Source: Halobacteriovoraceae bacterium
GTDB taxonomy: Bacteria; Bdellovibrionota; Bacteriovoracia; Bacteriovoracales; Bacteriovoracaceae
Length of the DNA: 63,005 bases
Direction: 5' to 3'
NCBI GenBank assembly: GCA_002711995.1
Contig: PASN01000010.1
Span: 1-63,005, forward strand
The notes under the pieces are model-generated. The model did not search any database and had not been told where the DNA came from. It worked only from the letters and a program-made list of their open reading frames with translations. The position numbers were made by a program, and so were the translations under genes. Below, piece by piece: positions 6,378 through 61,910 of this stretch; positions within the stretch are counted from its first letter, which is position 1, and each line of letters opens with the position of its first letter.

Positions 6378-6919
6378 TGAAAGAGCAGAATATCTCAAAA
6401 GTTTATGCTGATTCGTTTCTCGAATTAGGTAAAGATGGCAATGTAAACATTGCTGAAGAAATGACAAAACTCACTGAAACAATCAACGCTTCAAATGAAC
6501 TAGAAAATCTACTTTTTCTTGATGTATTTACCATAGAAGAGAAGACACTAGTTTTTGAGGATATTGCAAAAAAACTTGGTCTATCATCTTTGATGGTTTC
6601 GGCTGTTAAATACCTTATAGATCAAAAGAGAATTGGTCTTTTCCCTTTAATCTTTAAAGAGGTAATCGTTAGAGACGATATGGAGAAAGGATTTTTAAGA
6701 GGAACAATTTTAGGATCTGAGAATGACCTATCTGAGTCTCACAAAGAAAAACTTTTAGCTTCAATTAAAAAATACATTGGAGATAAAAAACCAATTTTAA
6801 CTTACAAGCAATCTGATGAAGTTACAGCTGGGTATAAAGTAAAAATTGAAGACCTCCAATTGGACGCGTCAGTAGATAATCAATTAAAGCATTTCAAAGA
6901 ATCAATTATAGGTGAATAA
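6377..6919 (+). CDS. atpH: ATP synthase F1 subunit delta
   Basis: Connects the peripheral stalk to the alpha3beta3 head. 180 residues with the OSCP/delta pattern: an N-terminal helical bundle beginning ISKVYADSFLELG, and a C-terminal section with the family-like GSENDLSESHKEKL and ILTYKQSDEVTAGYKVKI (the conserved Dp.liGG.vi region). It overlaps the b gene by one base and precedes atpA by 18 bases. Confidence 0.92.
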   Translation: MKEQNISKVYADSFLELGKDGNVNIAEEMTKLTETINASNELENLLFLDVFTIEEKTLVFEDIAKKLGLSSLMVSAVKYLIDQKRIGLFPLIFKEVIVRDDMEKGFLRGTILGSENDLSESHKEKLLASIKKYIGDKKPILTYKQSDEVTAGYKVKIEDLQLDASVDNQLKHFKESIIGE

Positions 6920-6937
6920 CTAATAAAGGAAAAATGA

Positions 6938-8449
6938 ATGAGCACGACAATGAGACCTGAAGAAATTACGGGAATAATTAAGGACAGGATCGCGAATTTC
7001 GAATCAAGACTTGATGTAAGTGAAGTTGGTACAGTCCTTACTATTGGTGACGGTGTTGCCAGAGTTTTCGGACTTAAGAATGTATTGGCCGGTGAACTTG
7101 TAGAGTTCGAAAATGGCGTAAAAGGTATGGTTTTAAACCTAGAGACCAACAATGTTGGTATCGCAGTTCTTGGTGACTATTCCGAAATTAAAGAAGGGTC
7201 TACTGTTAAAAGAACTGAAAAAATTGTTCAGGTTCCAGTTGGTGACGCTCTTCTAGGAAGAGTTGTAAACTCTATTGGTGAGCCAATTGACGGTCAAGGC
7301 GAACTTAAGACAAACGAATTTAGAAATATCGAAATCAAAGCTCCTGGCATTATTCAAAGAAAGCCTGTTCATGAGCCTATGCAAACTGGTATTAAAGCAA
7401 TCGATTCCATGATTCCAATTGGTAGAGGTCAAAGAGAGCTTATTATTGGTGATAGAAAAACAGGTAAAACTGCAGTTGCAATTGATACTATCATCAACCA
7501 AAAAGGCAAAGACGTAGTTTGTATCTATGTAGCCATTGGCCAAAAGCAGTCTACAGTTAGACAAGTTTATCAAAAGCTAAAAGAATCTGGTGCTTTAGAC
7601 TACACAATTATTGTTTCAGCTACTGCATCTCAGTCTGCACCACTACAATACATTGCCCCATACTCTGGTTGTACAATGGGTGAGTTCTACAGAGATAACG
7701 GAAAGCACGCTTTGATTGTTTATGATGACCTTACTAAGCAATCTCAGGCCTATAGACAGCTTTCTCTTCTTCTTAGAAGACCTCCAGGACGTGAAGCATT
7801 CCCAGGGGATGTATTCTATGTTCACTCCAGACTTCTAGAAAGAGCGGCTAAAATGAGTGATGAGCAAGGTGCTGGCTCACTTACAGCCCTTCCAGTTATT
7901 GAAACACAAGAGGGTGACGTTTCTGCTTATATTCCTACAAACGTTATTTCCATTACTGATGGACAAATCTATCTTGAGTCTGACCTATTTAACGCAGGTG
8001 TAAGACCAGCGGTTAACGTTGGTATCTCAGTTTCAAGGGTAGGTGGATCAGCTCAGGTTAAGGCAATGAAGAAAGTATCTGGTACTTTAAGACTAGATCT
8101 TGCTCAATACAGAGAGTTGGCGGCATTCTCCCAGTTTGCTTCTGACCTTGATGAGGCTACAAGAAAGCAACTTGAAAGAGGTGAGAGACTTGTTGAACTT
8201 CTTAAGCAAAAGCAATACAGCCCGATGAATGTTGAAGATCAAGTTATCTCTATCTATGCAGCTAACAAAGGTTACTTTGACACTGTTGAAAAATCTAAAG
8301 TTCAAGAAGCGGAACAAGGATTGTTGGAGTTTATTCAAACTAAGCATTCTGCAGTAAGAGACTCTATAAGAGAGGCTAAGCAAATTACTGCTGAAAACGA
8401 AGCTAAGTTAAACGAAGCAATTAAAAGCTTTTTCTCAGCGAACTATTAA
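6938..8449 (+). CDS. atpA: ATP synthase F1 subunit alpha
   Basis: Non-catalytic nucleotide-binding subunit of the F1 head. 503 residues is the standard length. Visible signatures are the N-terminal beta barrel ([14 protein letters not shown]), the P-loop GDRKTGKTA, the [20 protein letters not shown] stretch and [23 protein letters not shown] 6938 is preceded by AAAGGAAAA. It is the central gene of the b'-b-delta-alpha-gamma-beta-epsilon cluster. Confidence 0.98.
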
Positions 8450-56760: not shown

Positions 56761-57435
56761 ATGTTAAACAACGCTTATAAAGAGCTATCTAGTGGTGACA
56801 ATAGGCACTTCGTTGTGGTTGCGGGAAATATTGGAAGTGGGAAAACAACACTTACAAAGAAACTGTCCAATCGCTTAGGATGGAAGCCATTTTTTGAGTC
56901 CGTTCAGGACAATCCATATTTAGCTGATTTCTATGACAATATGAGCCGTTGGAGTTTTCCTCTTCAGGTTTACTTTCTCAATCATAGATTTAACACTCAT
57001 AAAAATATCGAATCTGGTCTAGCAAGTTCTGTTCAAGATCGCTCCATCTATGAAGACGCAAATATATTTGCAAGAGCTCTTTTTGAACAAGGAGACTTGG
57101 ACGCCAGAGACTATGAAAACTACTGTCAGCTATATGAGTCTATGATTCAATATCTTAGCCCTCCAACGCTAATGATTTTTCTAAAGCGCTCTGTTCCTAA
57201 ACTTCAGGAAAGAATTCAGCTCAGAGGTAGAGACTATGAGCAGGCAATACCTGTTGATTACCTGACAAAGCTAAACCAGTACTACGATGATTGGTATGAC
57301 AGCTATGATCTTGGAAAGTCTCTAATCGTAGACACTGATGATTTGGACTTTCTTGAAAACGAAGAGCACTTTGACAAGTTAGTGCAGAAAATACACGACT
57401 CTATTGATCAACAGGAAATGTTTTTCACCTACTAA
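56761..57435 (+). CDS. Deoxynucleoside kinase
   Basis: Phosphorylates deoxynucleosides for salvage, fitting a lifestyle that feeds on host DNA. 224 residues of the dNK/dGK family: P-loop GNIGSGKTT (residues 22-30), FFESVQDNPYLADFYDN, the DRS motif (QDRSIYEDANIFA, where many members have ERS), and the LID region RIQLRGRDYEQAI. ATG 56761 has GGGGGAG just upstream. Substrate specificity cannot be assigned by eye. Confidence 0.92.
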   Translation: MLNNAYKELSSGDNRHFVVVAGNIGSGKTTLTKKLSNRLGWKPFFESVQDNPYLADFYDNMSRWSFPLQVYFLNHRFNTHKNIESGLASSVQDRSIYEDANIFARALFEQGDLDARDYENYCQLYESMIQYLSPPTLMIFLKRSVPKLQERIQLRGRDYEQAIPVDYLTKLNQYYDDWYDSYDLGKSLIVDTDDLDFLENEEHFDKLVQKIHDSIDQQEMFFTY

Positions 57436-57510: not shown

Positions 57511-58176
57511 ATGAAATATTTTACAACACTATTTATCTTGTTGGGACTTGTTTCTTGTTCAGGTTCCAAGTCAGTTACTGAAGACGAGTCAATTGATGCG
57601 GGGATTGAGCTTGCCGACGCTGTTGAGTTTTCGGATGAAAGCGAAGACATCATGGCCGAAACCATTCCTGAAGATTTTGCTGACACCGAAATGGTGGTTC
57701 AAGAAGAGCCTGCCTTTGTTGAAGGTCAAGAACCTGTCGCTCAAGAGCCAGTTGTTGCTGACAACTCTGCTGTTGAGATTGAACCAACTATGGGAGTTGG
57801 AACCTATACTGTTAAAGAGAATGAAACTCTAATGATGATTGCCTTCAATCTATATGGCGACTACGCTAAATGGAGAGAGATCGCACAAATGAATTCAGAT
57901 GTTTTGAATGGAACAAAAGTTGCTGTGGGCACTGAATTAAAATACAACATTCCTGCTGAACCATTTGTTTTCAGCCCAAGTGGAAACCCTTACTTGGTTA
58001 AGCAGGGCGACTACCTAGGAAAAGTTTCCACAAAAACTTATGGAACATCAAAGCATTGGAAGGCCATTTGGGATAATAATAAGCCACTAATTAAAGATCC
58101 AAACGTGATTTTTGCAGGGTTTACTATTTATACTCCAATTCTTCAGGCAAGAGATGTTGCTTTTGAAGGTATCTAA
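57511..58176 (+). CDS. LysM-domain lipoprotein
   Basis: 221 residues. Lipobox LVSC (Cys16). Residues about 20-90 are an acidic, low-complexity linker rich in Glu, Ala, Val and Pro. A LysM domain follows (about 98-150, GTYTVKENETLMMIAFNLYGD), and a second LysM-like segment (about 157-215, YLVKQGDYLGKVSTKTYGT). LysM binds peptidoglycan GlcNAc, so this lipoprotein probably tethers the membrane to the wall. A strong terminator follows. Confidence 0.88.
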   Translation: MKYFTTLFILLGLVSCSGSKSVTEDESIDAGIELADAVEFSDESEDIMAETIPEDFADTEMVVQEEPAFVEGQEPVAQEPVVADNSAVEIEPTMGVGTYTVKENETLMMIAFNLYGDYAKWREIAQMNSDVLNGTKVAVGTELKYNIPAEPFVFSPSGNPYLVKQGDYLGKVSTKTYGTSKHWKAIWDNNKPLIKDPNVIFAGFTIYTPILQARDVAFEGI

Positions 58177-58248: not shown

Positions 58249-59028
58249 ATGAAGATTTTGATTATCACATTCTCTTTGATTTTTACTTCTTGTGCTTTTT
58301 TGTCTCCAAAAAAGGATGACAAGAAATCAAAGGCCATAGGCCTGTCCAGTTATCGGCCATTAAATTCTGAAGACTTTGTGGATCATTTGCAGGCATTTGA
58401 AGAGTTTTATTTAAACTCAAAAAATGCACAGGTATATAACCTATATAGAAAAGAAGAAAAATTTCTAGAGGGAATAGCAAGGGACATCACAAAAAACAAC
58501 GAGCTATTTTTTACAAGCACCAATAGGCCAACTTTTAAGATTATAAAACATCCAGCTCCGTTTCATTTCTCTTTGCCAGGACTTAAAATTTTTATTTCAT
58601 CAGGTCTGATTTCTAAATACATAAAAAGCGAAAAGCTTCTCTACAGTGTGATTGCGTACGAGCTAATTCGAAGTGAGAAGAGGATTTACAGAAAATCCCT
58701 AATCGTGCCAACAGGTTACCTCACAACTTCTAGAATGCTAGGACTTATGAGGTTGAAAACCACTGATAAGGTGGAAATTCACAAATGGGCCTTCTACACT
58801 TTAAAAAGAGTAGGCGTTGACCCTGATATATACTTGTCTTGGTTGCAGATCCAAAACAGAAACTCTCTGGACTTTGCGGTTCAGTTGGGAGACACAAGCT
58901 CTATATCCAGAGAAGAATCCATGTTTAAAGCTTTCTTGATTGAGCAGGCAAACGCGAAATCAGGACAGGCCAAATATGAAAGATCTTCCAGAGAATTTTA
59001 TTCATTTGTTAACAGGTTAAAAAGGTGA
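58249..59028 (+). CDS. M48-peptidase-like lipoprotein lacking the HExxH metal site
   Basis: 259 residues. Lipobox TSC (Cys15). The middle follows the M48 fold order: FSLPGLKIFISSGLISKYIKSEKLLYSVIAYELIRSEKRIYRKSL, where active M48 proteins read GGxVxVTxGLLxxx...ELAxVLAHExAHxxxRH. The zinc pentapeptide is YELIR instead of HExxH, keeping the Glu but losing both His. It is thus a predicted inactive paralogue, perhaps a binding or regulatory protein. It is the first gene of a unit with the AmgK-like kinase. The match is by pattern, not by a search. Confidence 0.65.
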   Translation: MKILIITFSLIFTSCAFLSPKKDDKKSKAIGLSSYRPLNSEDFVDHLQAFEEFYLNSKNAQVYNLYRKEEKFLEGIARDITKNNELFFTSTNRPTFKIIKHPAPFHFSLPGLKIFISSGLISKYIKSEKLLYSVIAYELIRSEKRIYRKSLIVPTGYLTTSRMLGLMRLKTTDKVEIHKWAFYTLKRVGVDPDIYLSWLQIQNRNSLDFAVQLGDTSSISREESMFKAFLIEQANAKSGQAKYERSSREFYSFVNRLKR

Positions 59029-59030
59029 GT

Positions 59031-60056
59031 ATGAAACCGGAAGTTTCCGAGCGGTTGTTTATTGAAGAGCTCTTTAAGAAATCAATGGATGAGACAAATG
59101 TGGATTGTCCTAAAATTACAAATGTTGAAAGATTGACTGGGGACGCTTCTACTAGAAGATACTATCGAGTTCATTGTTCAGTTCAGTCTTATGTTGTGTG
59201 TTTGGACAACCCAAGCCAGGATGAGTTCAACTCCTTTGTTGAAACTCAAAAGTTCTTCGAAAAACATGACATCAAAGTTCCAAAGGTAATACACACAGAC
59301 CTCTCTAAGGGCTATCTTCTTGAAGAGGACCTTGGAGATGAAACGCTGCTAAAAGCACTCTCGAGTGTAAATTCGAAGGAAGCTGAGCTTTCCGTCTTTA
59401 AAGACATTATTGAGGAGCTTGTTAAAATTCACAGCATACCTTTGGAGGAAGTTTCAAAATCTCACATCGGAAAACTAAAATTTGATTTTGAAAAGCTCAT
59501 TAACGAAATAGATTTCACTGTCGATTACTTTGTAGGAAGGTTTCTGGGAGTTGAAGACGAAGGACTGAAGCGAAGCCTTATTGAGGAGTTTTACCCTGTG
59601 TGTAAAAGATTGAGCTCTCAGAAGATGGTGTGCACTCATAGGGACTTTCACTCTAGAAATATCATGGTTACAGATGATAAATTTATGATAATCGACTTCC
59701 AAGACGCTAGACTGGGAATACCTCAGTACGATTTAGCAAGCCTTTTAGAGGATTGCTATTACGATTTAAACGCTGAGAACAGAGAGCTTCTTAAGAGAAT
59801 GTACTTTGAGAGTTTGCCTGAAGAGGTTCATGGACAAAAGAGCGTTGAGGAGTTCCAATCTCTTTATAGAGATATGCTCTTGCAAAGGGTTTTTAAAGCT
59901 GTTGGAAGCTTTGCCTATATTTATCATCACCGAAAAGATCATCGCTACTTGAAATATATTGGTTTTGCCATGGAAAAGTTAAAGTTGGCAATGCTGGATC
60001 AGCCTGATCTCAAAAACTTAAAGCACAAGTTGTTTGATATATACTATGACAGTTGA
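59031..60056 (+). CDS. AmgK-like sugar kinase (aminoglycoside phosphotransferase fold)
   Basis: About 341 residues from ATG 59031 (AAAGGTG upstream). The APH fold is clear: LTGDASTRRYYRV (P-loop-like), LEEDLGD hinge, the catalytic loop HRDFHSRNIMV (about residues 203-213) and IIDFQDARLG (DFG-like), then YDLASLLEDCYYDL. These motifs match AmgK, which phosphorylates MurNAc/GlcNAc at the anomeric position in wall recycling. The following nucleotidyltransferase strengthens this. Substrate remains inferred. Confidence 0.8.
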   Translation: MKPEVSERLFIEELFKKSMDETNVDCPKITNVERLTGDASTRRYYRVHCSVQSYVVCLDNPSQDEFNSFVETQKFFEKHDIKVPKVIHTDLSKGYLLEEDLGDETLLKALSSVNSKEAELSVFKDIIEELVKIHSIPLEEVSKSHIGKLKFDFEKLINEIDFTVDYFVGRFLGVEDEGLKRSLIEEFYPVCKRLSSQKMVCTHRDFHSRNIMVTDDKFMIIDFQDARLGIPQYDLASLLEDCYYDLNAENRELLKRMYFESLPEEVHGQKSVEEFQSLYRDMLLQRVFKAVGSFAYIYHHRKDHRYLKYIGFAMEKLKLAMLDQPDLKNLKHKLFDIYYDS

Positions 60057-60978
60057 AAACGTATTGATTCTTGCCGCTGGAGCGGGAACTCGAATGGGAG
60101 AAATTGGAAAGATCCTGCCCAAGGTCTTGTGGCCGGTTTTTGAACGAAGTCTTTTAGAGCTTGAAGTTTTATATGCTAAAAGCCTTGGCGCTAAAAACGT
60201 TTTTATAAATTCTCATTACTATACAACCGAGTTGTTGGGCCACATTGAGAATAATTCCATTTTTGAAAATGTTGAACTTTTAATCGAAAATGAGCCAATC
60301 GACATTGGAGGTGCTGTTCACAACCTTGCGGACAAACTTGGCTACAGGGGCGAGCTTCTAATCCTTAATAGCGATCAGTTTATTTTTGTGGATGAGAATG
60401 TGTGGGCTGAAGCATTTGAGAGGTTCAAGACAAGTTCGTCGGTTCTTTTTAGCTACCAGGTAAACTCTAGTGACATGTACAATGCCCTTGATGTTAAAAG
60501 TGGTAGATTGTCGGGAATTATAAATAACTCTAGCCTTGAAAGAAACAAAAGTGTTAAGACCTACACTGGAATGTCCTTGATTAGGCTTGATGATCTTATA
60601 CCCTGTAAAGGTAAAAGCTCCTTCTTTGATAGTGTTGCAAATTTTAAGAATCAAAATGTTCAAGTTGTGGATATCAACGATTCCGAGTATTGGGATTTCG
60701 GCACACTAGATCGGTACTGGAAGAGCTGCTTTTCTATCTTGGAAAAAGTTCATGAAGAAACCTCTGATCGGTTTGTCTCGTTTCTGCTAAACCATAAGGC
60801 CATTCTTGAGAAAAAGGTTGAAGGCTCTTGTTACAACGCTAGCAGCAGTGAAAAGGTGATAAACCTTTCAGACAAAAAAGTGTCAGATGCTAAAAATGTG
60901 ATTATTCTAAGTGGTGAACCAAGACAGGGCACAGAAGAAAAACGAATCGTTTTTAAAAGTTTGGTTGAGCGAATTTAA
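60046..60978 (+). CDS. MurU-like sugar-1-phosphate nucleotidyltransferase
   Basis: About 310 residues from ATG 60046; the frame is open from 60034. ILAAGAGTRMGEIGKILPK is the NTP-transferase signature, followed by LNSDQFIF (metal Asp) and VVDINDSEYWDFGTLDRYW. Paired with the AmgK-like kinase, it fits the MurU step: MurNAc-1-P plus UTP to UDP-MurNAc, bypassing fosfomycin-sensitive MurA. It is longer than typical MurU (about 230), with an extra C-terminal 80 residues; a GDP- or NDP-sugar role elsewhere is the alternative. It shares TTAA with the convergent ferredoxin. Confidence 0.75.
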   Translation: MTVENVLILAAGAGTRMGEIGKILPKVLWPVFERSLLELEVLYAKSLGAKNVFINSHYYTTELLGHIENNSIFENVELLIENEPIDIGGAVHNLADKLGYRGELLILNSDQFIFVDENVWAEAFERFKTSSSVLFSYQVNSSDMYNALDVKSGRLSGIINNSSLERNKSVKTYTGMSLIRLDDLIPCKGKSSFFDSVANFKNQNVQVVDINDSEYWDFGTLDRYWKSCFSILEKVHEETSDRFVSFLLNHKAILEKKVEGSCYNASSSEKVINLSDKKVSDAKNVIILSGEPRQGTEEKRIVFKSLVERI

Positions 60979-61157
60979 TCAACTTTTGGTCGAATACATT
61001 CCGCTGGACAAACTTCAATGCAAAGATGGCAATTTGTGCAGCTCCAATTGTCGATCGCATACTCCGTACCATCGGTAATAATGGCATCCTCAGGGCATAT
61101 TAACCGGCAAGAATCGCATGATACGCATGTGTTGTTTATTTCAAGTTTTTTTATCAT
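60975..61157 (-). CDS. 2[4Fe-4S] ferredoxin
   Basis: 60 residues from ATG 61157, a length much closer to a bacterial ferredoxin than the 109-residue open frame. Two CxxCxxCxxxCP motifs, CVSCDSCRLICP and CTNCHLCIEVCP, each hold one [4Fe-4S] cluster. It carries low-potential electrons in the cytoplasm. The ribosome site is poor. Its start is 24 bases from the divergent membrane gene at 61182. Confidence 0.85.
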   Translation of the reverse strand: MIKKLEINNTCVSCDSCRLICPEDAIITDGTEYAIDNWSCTNCHLCIEVCPAECIRPKVD

Positions 61158-61181
61158 AATAGTTACAGGACAAATTATACT

Positions 61182-61910
61182 ATGAAATTGAAAATTTTCT
61201 ATAGAAGCACAACAATATGGAACATTGTACTCTTTGTTATTTTGAGCTTCTTTTTTATTTACCGGCAACAGGGAATGCTTCAAGCAAGAACTGTTTTTAA
61301 CCAACCTTTTTTAAAGGACACCCTTCTCCAGTTTTGGAGTTTTAATCTCTTATTATTGGCAACTGCAATGTCAGTTTTTAAAGTAAAGCACTTTTCAAAA
61401 TATCTGTTTGTAGCTGTTGTTGGTGCGGCAAGTGGAATAACAATTTTCAATCTTTTTGATCATTTTTCAAAGCTCATTACCATCTCGCTTTTCTTGTATT
61501 TGATAACAAGCTATTACTTTTATCAGTTTTTAAAGATTGAAATAGATGAGGCCTACTACAACCCCTCTTTTTCTGAGGATGATTTGTTCGAGCCTATGCT
61601 CACTAAACTTAATTGTGAAGTAAGAGATACTAACACTGGCAATGTTTACCAGGCGAGACTTACCAATTGGAATCCAAATGGCTGTTTTGTGTACCTCGAA
61701 AACCCAGTTGAAGATATAGATTTTAAAAATGCCCAAATAACCACTTCTCTTTCGGAGACCAGCTTTAACTCAGTGGCCGTTTTGGCCTGCAGAACCCAAG
61801 ATAAGAAAGGCTTTGGTTTTAGAGTTCCTAGCACGAAAGGGGATTTTGGTTGGAGGGAATATTACTCGATCCTTGATCAGATGGGATTTAATGTGGAGCT
61901 TTTACGATGA
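61182..61910 (+). CDS. Membrane protein with C-terminal PilZ-like domain
   Basis: 242 residues. Four membrane helices in residues about 8-115, then a cytoplasmic domain of roughly 110 residues. Its YQARLTNWNPNGCFVYLENP and RTQDKKGFGFRV segments follow the PilZ pattern (x-L-x-[ND]-x-S-x-G-G/C-x-x-[VF] and G-[VF]-G-V), though the N-terminal RxxxR c-di-GMP arm is not evident. It may thus be a degenerate or non-binding PilZ. It overlaps the next lipoprotein gene by four bases. Confidence 0.6.
   Translation: MKLKIFYRSTTIWNIVLFVILSFFFIYRQQGMLQARTVFNQPFLKDTLLQFWSFNLLLLATAMSVFKVKHFSKYLFVAVVGAASGITIFNLFDHFSKLITISLFLYLITSYYFYQFLKIEIDEAYYNPSFSEDDLFEPMLTKLNCEVRDTNTGNVYQARLTNWNPNGCFVYLENPVEDIDFKNAQITTSLSETSFNSVAVLACRTQDKKGFGFRVPSTKGDFGWREYYSILDQMGFNVELLR

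Follow-up and report, generated by a model that had tools for sequence, protein, structure and literature searches.

The window analysed here is a stretch of 63,005 nucleotides from a Halobacteriovoraceae bacterium (order Bacteriovoracales, phylum Bdellovibrionota). It carries the gene for an AmgK-type sugar kinase, followed directly by that for a sugar-1-phosphate nucleotidyltransferase. On balance we consider that this pair probably, if by no great margin, converts free MurNAc, and perhaps GlcNAc as well, to a UDP-sugar along a salvage route that lacks the AnmK step. The proposal draws direct support from the family identity of the kinase, the adjacency of the two genes throughout the order, the failure to find AnmK and the presence of NagZ, AmpG and MurA. 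The substrate, the product and the source of the sugar, which may include the prey wall, we infer.

The kinase gene (59031–60056, forward strand) encodes 341 amino acids from an ATG at 59031, or 343 if an alternative GTG at 59025 is used. Two bases separate the preceding stop codon from the ATG, with AGGTGA immediately 5′ of the latter. Both open reading frames lie on the forward strand, at the place and with the lengths given in an earlier, sequence-only reading, and the motifs quoted there (GDASTRRYYRV, HRDFHSRNIM and DFQDARLG) are all found in the kinase translation, with HRDFHSRN at residues 203–210 and DFQDARLG at 222–229. The protein matches the Pfam APH family (E = 7.1e-28), and its top NCBIfam model is AmgK (NF045759, 129.7 bits, E = 1.3e-37), the best model of any other kind reaching 32 bits. 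The curated AmgK cut-off of 550 bits is too narrow to decide membership, being passed by none of 290 genomes of the phylum and leaving even the Caulobacter control below it. In an alignment of 27 kinases, including those of Acinetobacter, Nitrosomonas and Shewanella, 29 columns are invariant; these include His203, Arg204, Asp205, Asn210, Asp222 and Asp225, and cover HRD together with all of DFQD except its F. The predicted structure (pLDDT 93.9) has the APH fold and is nearest to PDB entry 3csv (Z = 29.1, r.m.s.d. 3.0 over 305 residues), deposited as a putative aminoglycoside phosphotransferase. In the kinase tree the enzymes of the order nest within those of Bdellovibrionota, beside a group neighboured by AnmK (support 88/93, not starred). 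The branch leading to them is 0.25; the kinases of loci L055, L053 and L054 are individually long. With the best curated model, the invariant active-site residues and the tree position in agreement, the earlier assignment is upheld and the predicted AmgK-type identity is well supported. The excerpts of a study of Caulobacter describe an AmgK only 30.1% identical to the Pseudomonas aeruginosa enzyme, amgK mutant phenotypes that fit the role, and a MurU 36.6% identical to that of P. aeruginosa (PMC13046382).

The pair is retained across nearly the whole order. A survey of 129 genomes found 124 with the kinase and 125 with the partner. Of the 124 genomes with both genes, 122 have them adjacent on the same strand with the partner downstream, and in the other two the kinase is close to a contig end. 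Most pairs overlap, the commonest gap being −10, and in the window the partner starts within the end of the kinase gene with an overlap of 11 bases. The surrounding string was scored on 20 order loci with flanks of about 6 kb: genes for an outer-membrane-like protein, a LysM protein, a lipoprotein-like protein, the kinase and the partner are present in all 20. In the window the LysM-domain protein (57511–58176, forward strand, Pfam LysM) has a lipoprotein-like start, and the lipoprotein-like protein (58249–59028, forward strand) has no Pfam match over cut-off. Downstream, the gene at 61182–61910 (forward strand) has homologues in 19 of the 20 loci, one of which gives a weak PilZ match (17.5 bits, cut-off 22.5). 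The LysM gene fits a role in the wall, short of proof. Other neighbours are less constant. A deoxynucleoside kinase gene (56761–57435), upstream of the LysM gene, is present in ten of the 20 loci, and a small ferredoxin-like 4Fe-4S gene on the reverse strand (60975–61304), overlapping the end of the partner gene, has a homologue in one. In several other phyla (loci L111, L113, L114, L124, L134, L144 and L168) a related nucleotidyltransferase lies upstream, not downstream, of the kinase.

AnmK was detected in none of the 129 order genomes, that of the window included (96.4% complete), and the Escherichia coli and Caulobacter controls were matched. Among the 290 phylum genomes AnmK occurs in 67 and an AmgK-family kinase in 272. 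Distances between AnmK and the kinase were compared in 50 of the 67: the two genes are within 2.5 kb in 40, convergent on one contig in 42 and on different contigs in eight. Since AnmK mostly lies beside the pair elsewhere in the phylum and was not found in the order, the kinase, the partner and AnmK probably constitute an old cluster from which AnmK was lost in the order. The sections of PMC8067016 that concern the gene also describe anmK as patchy in the phylum. AmgK in the company of no AnmK was considered as a trait of predators only and rejected, because the combination occurs in genomes of several other phyla. We checked the genomes of 50 of the 80 named loci with the kinase and found AnmK in 20; most of the named beta- and gammaproteobacteria have it, and most Nitrospinota, Chlorobiota and Acidobacteriota are without it, many of the 50 being metagenome-assembled genomes of unestablished completeness.

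The sequence-only reading had suggested a look for mupP and other recycling genes, and this yielded NagZ and AmpG. The genome of the window has its own beta-N-acetylhexosaminidase (NagZ, 242 bits, cut-off 207) and an AmpG-family transporter (466 bits, cut-off 350, at subfamily level). Across the order, this genome included, GH3/NagZ is found in 123 of the 129 genomes and AmpG in 99. The MupP search is one that cannot discriminate: the best match in the genome of the window scores 39.8 bits and none of the 129 genomes is over the cut-off, but no control genome passes either, Caulobacter included. In the genus g16 the pair persists independently of AmpG, as all five genomes are without an AmpG match and have kept the pair. 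One g16 genome (G046) encodes, near a HAD phosphatase, an additional GH3 enzyme that begins with a signal-like segment (L063:5203-5823, 6911-8149); this GH3 enzyme could release sugars outside the cytoplasm. We also note, in the genome of the window (C19, L065:8228-9796), a 522-residue SIS-domain protein of the GKRP/MurQ type, at most a candidate MurNAc-6-phosphate etherase, with a best MurQ-family score of 151.6 bits against a cut-off of 168. Proteins of about 500 residues that match in this way are widespread in the order.

The idea that MurA is missing was rejected, the genome having its own copy at 523.9 bits (cut-off 392.7). The description of the pair as MurA-independent therefore stands in the sense of a bypass and not in that of a replacement for an absent enzyme.

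The partner (60046–60978, forward strand, ATG start, 310 residues) is a sugar-1-phosphate nucleotidyltransferase. It matches Pfam NTP_transferase (E = 3.8e-10) and retains the family-invariant Arg16, Lys26, Asn55, Glu81, Asn108 and Asp110. It had been called MurU-like, and a nucleotidyltransferase does adjoin the kinase, but MurU comes only third among the NCBIfam models, with Arch_glmU at 53.7 bits, GlmU at 41.8 and MurU (NF045761) at 40.0 against a cut-off of 250. A profile of 19 order partners searched against the PDB places HddC (89.5 bits) ahead of MurU (52.6 and 42.7). In hhalign comparisons the order partners score 189.6 against the phylum partners, 187.2 against HddC-like paralogues and 156.3 against proteobacterial MurU, whereas the other Bdellovibrionota partners score 247.1 against the same MurU set. 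Comparison of folds gives Z = 23.4 for HddC and 22.1–22.4 for MurU, effectively a tie, with many other structures at 20–23. The identification with MurU thus comes from gene neighbourhood; neither sequence nor tree nor fold picks MurU out, and the partner is not demonstrably that enzyme.

The tree of 65 partner sequences places the 16 order members in one clade (support 100/100) outside all other kinase-linked partners. The branch to this clade is 2.31 changes per column, compared with 0.25 for the kinases of the same loci. With so short a kinase branch and so long a partner branch, the partner was either replaced or changed far faster than the kinase. We put the second of these at slightly below an even chance: the partner would be a MurU passed on by vertical descent and altered by rapid evolution, with no replacement and only AnmK missing, which is compatible with the salvage route. 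Its position and overlap after the kinase are unchanged, and the approximately unbiased (AU) test does not reject a single clade uniting the partners of the order with those of Bdellovibrionota (p = 0.191). However, the best tree separates the two groups, the union of the order partners with the paralogues is likewise not rejected (p = 0.427), and MurU is the top model for the partners of loci L075 and L077 from other Bdellovibrionota but not for the two order partners scanned.

The partner had also been credited with some 80 extra residues that might alter its specificity. The count is right relative to a short MurU, the C-terminal extension spanning approximately residues 238–310 (60757–60978, forward strand), where model confidence is low towards the end; the extra length is ordinary for the phylum and not peculiar to this protein. 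Partners measure 270–337 residues in 28 order loci, 247–351 in 20 further order loci (some from the same genomes as the 28, with longer flanks) and 258–387 in 20 other loci of the phylum. Outside Bdellovibrionota, 28 of 42 adjacent partners have 219–247 residues and 14 have 297–340, and three from a plasmid collection have 229–251. We therefore rejected the extension as a special feature. By eye the tail of the longer partners looks hexapeptide-like in several loci, and in the clade of the window it is diverged and modelled with low confidence. Two records in the plasmid collection, L175 and L177 (Acinetobacter baumannii and Aeromonas caviae; 4.1 and 4.9 Mb), are probably chromosomes.

In the route that we favour, the kinase would behave like AmgK, as its family suggests, and place a phosphate on the anomeric carbon of MurNAc in its free form, probably of GlcNAc too. 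The adjacent partner would convert the sugar 1-phosphate to a UDP-sugar, by its position most likely UDP-MurNAc, which would join wall synthesis below MurA and MurB. The standard pathway, as set out in the relevant parts of PMC5371407, consists of AnmK, MupP, AmgK and MurU. As no AnmK was found in the order, its MurNAc would not be supplied by the Pseudomonas entry step. It would have to come as ordinary, reducing MurNAc, released for example by the joint action of hydrolytic lysozymes, NagZ and an amidase, or by way of some other enzyme. The excerpts of PMC7511926 argue for an inverting hydrolytic mechanism in a Bdellovibrio lysozyme, which we take to leave ordinary rather than anhydro ends, and those of PMC7670621 describe AmgK and MurU of Tannerella forsythia running on MurNAc from outside with no AnmK predicted. 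Weighing against the route, the lack of AnmK removes the known supply of MurNAc, and the substrate could have changed. The low kinase score relative to the AmgK cut-off, and a partner no nearer to MurU than to other pyrophosphorylases, count against it as well. Among the literature matches listed for AmgK, MurU, AnmK or recycling together with Bdellovibrio names, no paper deals with AmgK in Bdellovibrionota; PMC11656739 has one word beginning 'muru', which 12 of the 16 passages do not show as the MurU gene.

An unlikely alternative is that the kinase acts mainly on GlcNAc released by NagZ and that the partner makes UDP-GlcNAc, so that the other wall sugar is recycled. The lack of AnmK would then not matter. 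The AmgK models are titled for both MurNAc and GlcNAc, and Arch_glmU and GlmU are the best models for the partner, GlmU being first, at 61.4 bits, for a second order member (L040). The GlmU-type scores of the window partner are, however, as weak as its MurU score and far under their cut-offs, and the presence of AnmK next to the kinase elsewhere in the phylum points to MurNAc. Least probable of all is recruitment of the pair in the order to another nucleotide sugar, for a surface polysaccharide for instance, with GTP or another NTP: no solved structure lies closer to the partner family than HddC, a guanylyltransferase and so titled in its NCBIfam model, and the partner branch far exceeds that of the kinases, but the kinase active site is unchanged, HddC-like paralogues occur away from the pair in some order genomes, and the conserved string contains a LysM gene and no recognised polysaccharide gene.

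The general role is an expected one; the surprises are the loss of AnmK throughout the order and the odd partner. A predatory lifestyle for the organism of the window is suggested by its named relatives, Bacteriovoracaceae and Bacteriovorax. Both genomes that we presume to be epibiotic (G133, presumed Pseudobdellovibrio exovorus JSS, and G250, presumed Ca. Bdellovibrio qaytius) have AnmK beside the pair. Other names presumed in the sample are B. bacteriovorus Tiberius (G170), strain SSB218315 (G186) and Halobacteriovorax marinus SJ (G043). AnmK is present in seven of ten sampled genomes of g53, the genus of the presumed epibiotics, and in none of 21 of g83, the presumed Bdellovibrio. This fits a loss of AnmK accompanying periplasmic predation, with the epibiotic cases representing one lineage. 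Against such a link, only 67 of the 290 genomes sampled from the phylum have AnmK, and among the families lacking the gene are many of unassigned lifestyle.

We offer one broader scenario as speculation that is more likely wrong than right by some way. The kinase would have been freed from recycling anhydro-MurNAc of the cell's own wall, AnmK being lost throughout the order and AmpG in some of its lineages, and would have acquired a new partner, a nucleotidyltransferase other than MurU; ordinary MurNAc or GlcNAc released from prey wall by lysozyme would be turned directly into a UDP-sugar, with AnmK kept in the epibiotic lineage and lost in the intraperiplasmic ones. Should the salvage reading be right, predators of this kind would make part of their wall out of prey MurNAc, bypassing MurA, and would be predicted to tolerate fosfomycin partially and to take up label from MurNAc probes while preying. 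In E. coli, entry of 2-modified MurNAc probes into the wall requires amgK and murU (PMC13041923). That AmgK is retained across an entire order in which AnmK was not found, and likewise in genomes from several other phyla, raises the question of where free MurNAc comes from, and the partner of the order offers a natural test of a shift in nucleotidyltransferase specificity with the kinase fixed.

Among known systems, HddC (PDB entries 6jq8 and 5xhw) stands nearer to the partner by sequence profile than any other solved structure and ties for first in fold, yet no gene of the HddC pathway is recognised beside the pair. The T. forsythia system, in the passages that describe it, resembles the order in having an AmgK/MurU-type pair and no AnmK, as a prediction there and as a search result here; it differs in being without MurA and MurB, whereas the genome of the window has MurA. 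With Pseudomonas and Caulobacter the window shares an adjacent APH-fold kinase and nucleotidyltransferase, the kinase active site, NagZ and AmpG. It departs from them in that no AnmK was found in the order, MupP is unrecognisable, and the partner is longer and not identifiable as MurU by sequence. A further comparison is with the AmgK–MurU–AnmK clusters of other Bdellovibrionota (for example L075 and L079). There, unlike in the order, AnmK adjoins the pair and MurU is the top-scoring model for the partner of L075, but the kinase is related and the nucleotidyltransferase lies next to it, just as in the window.
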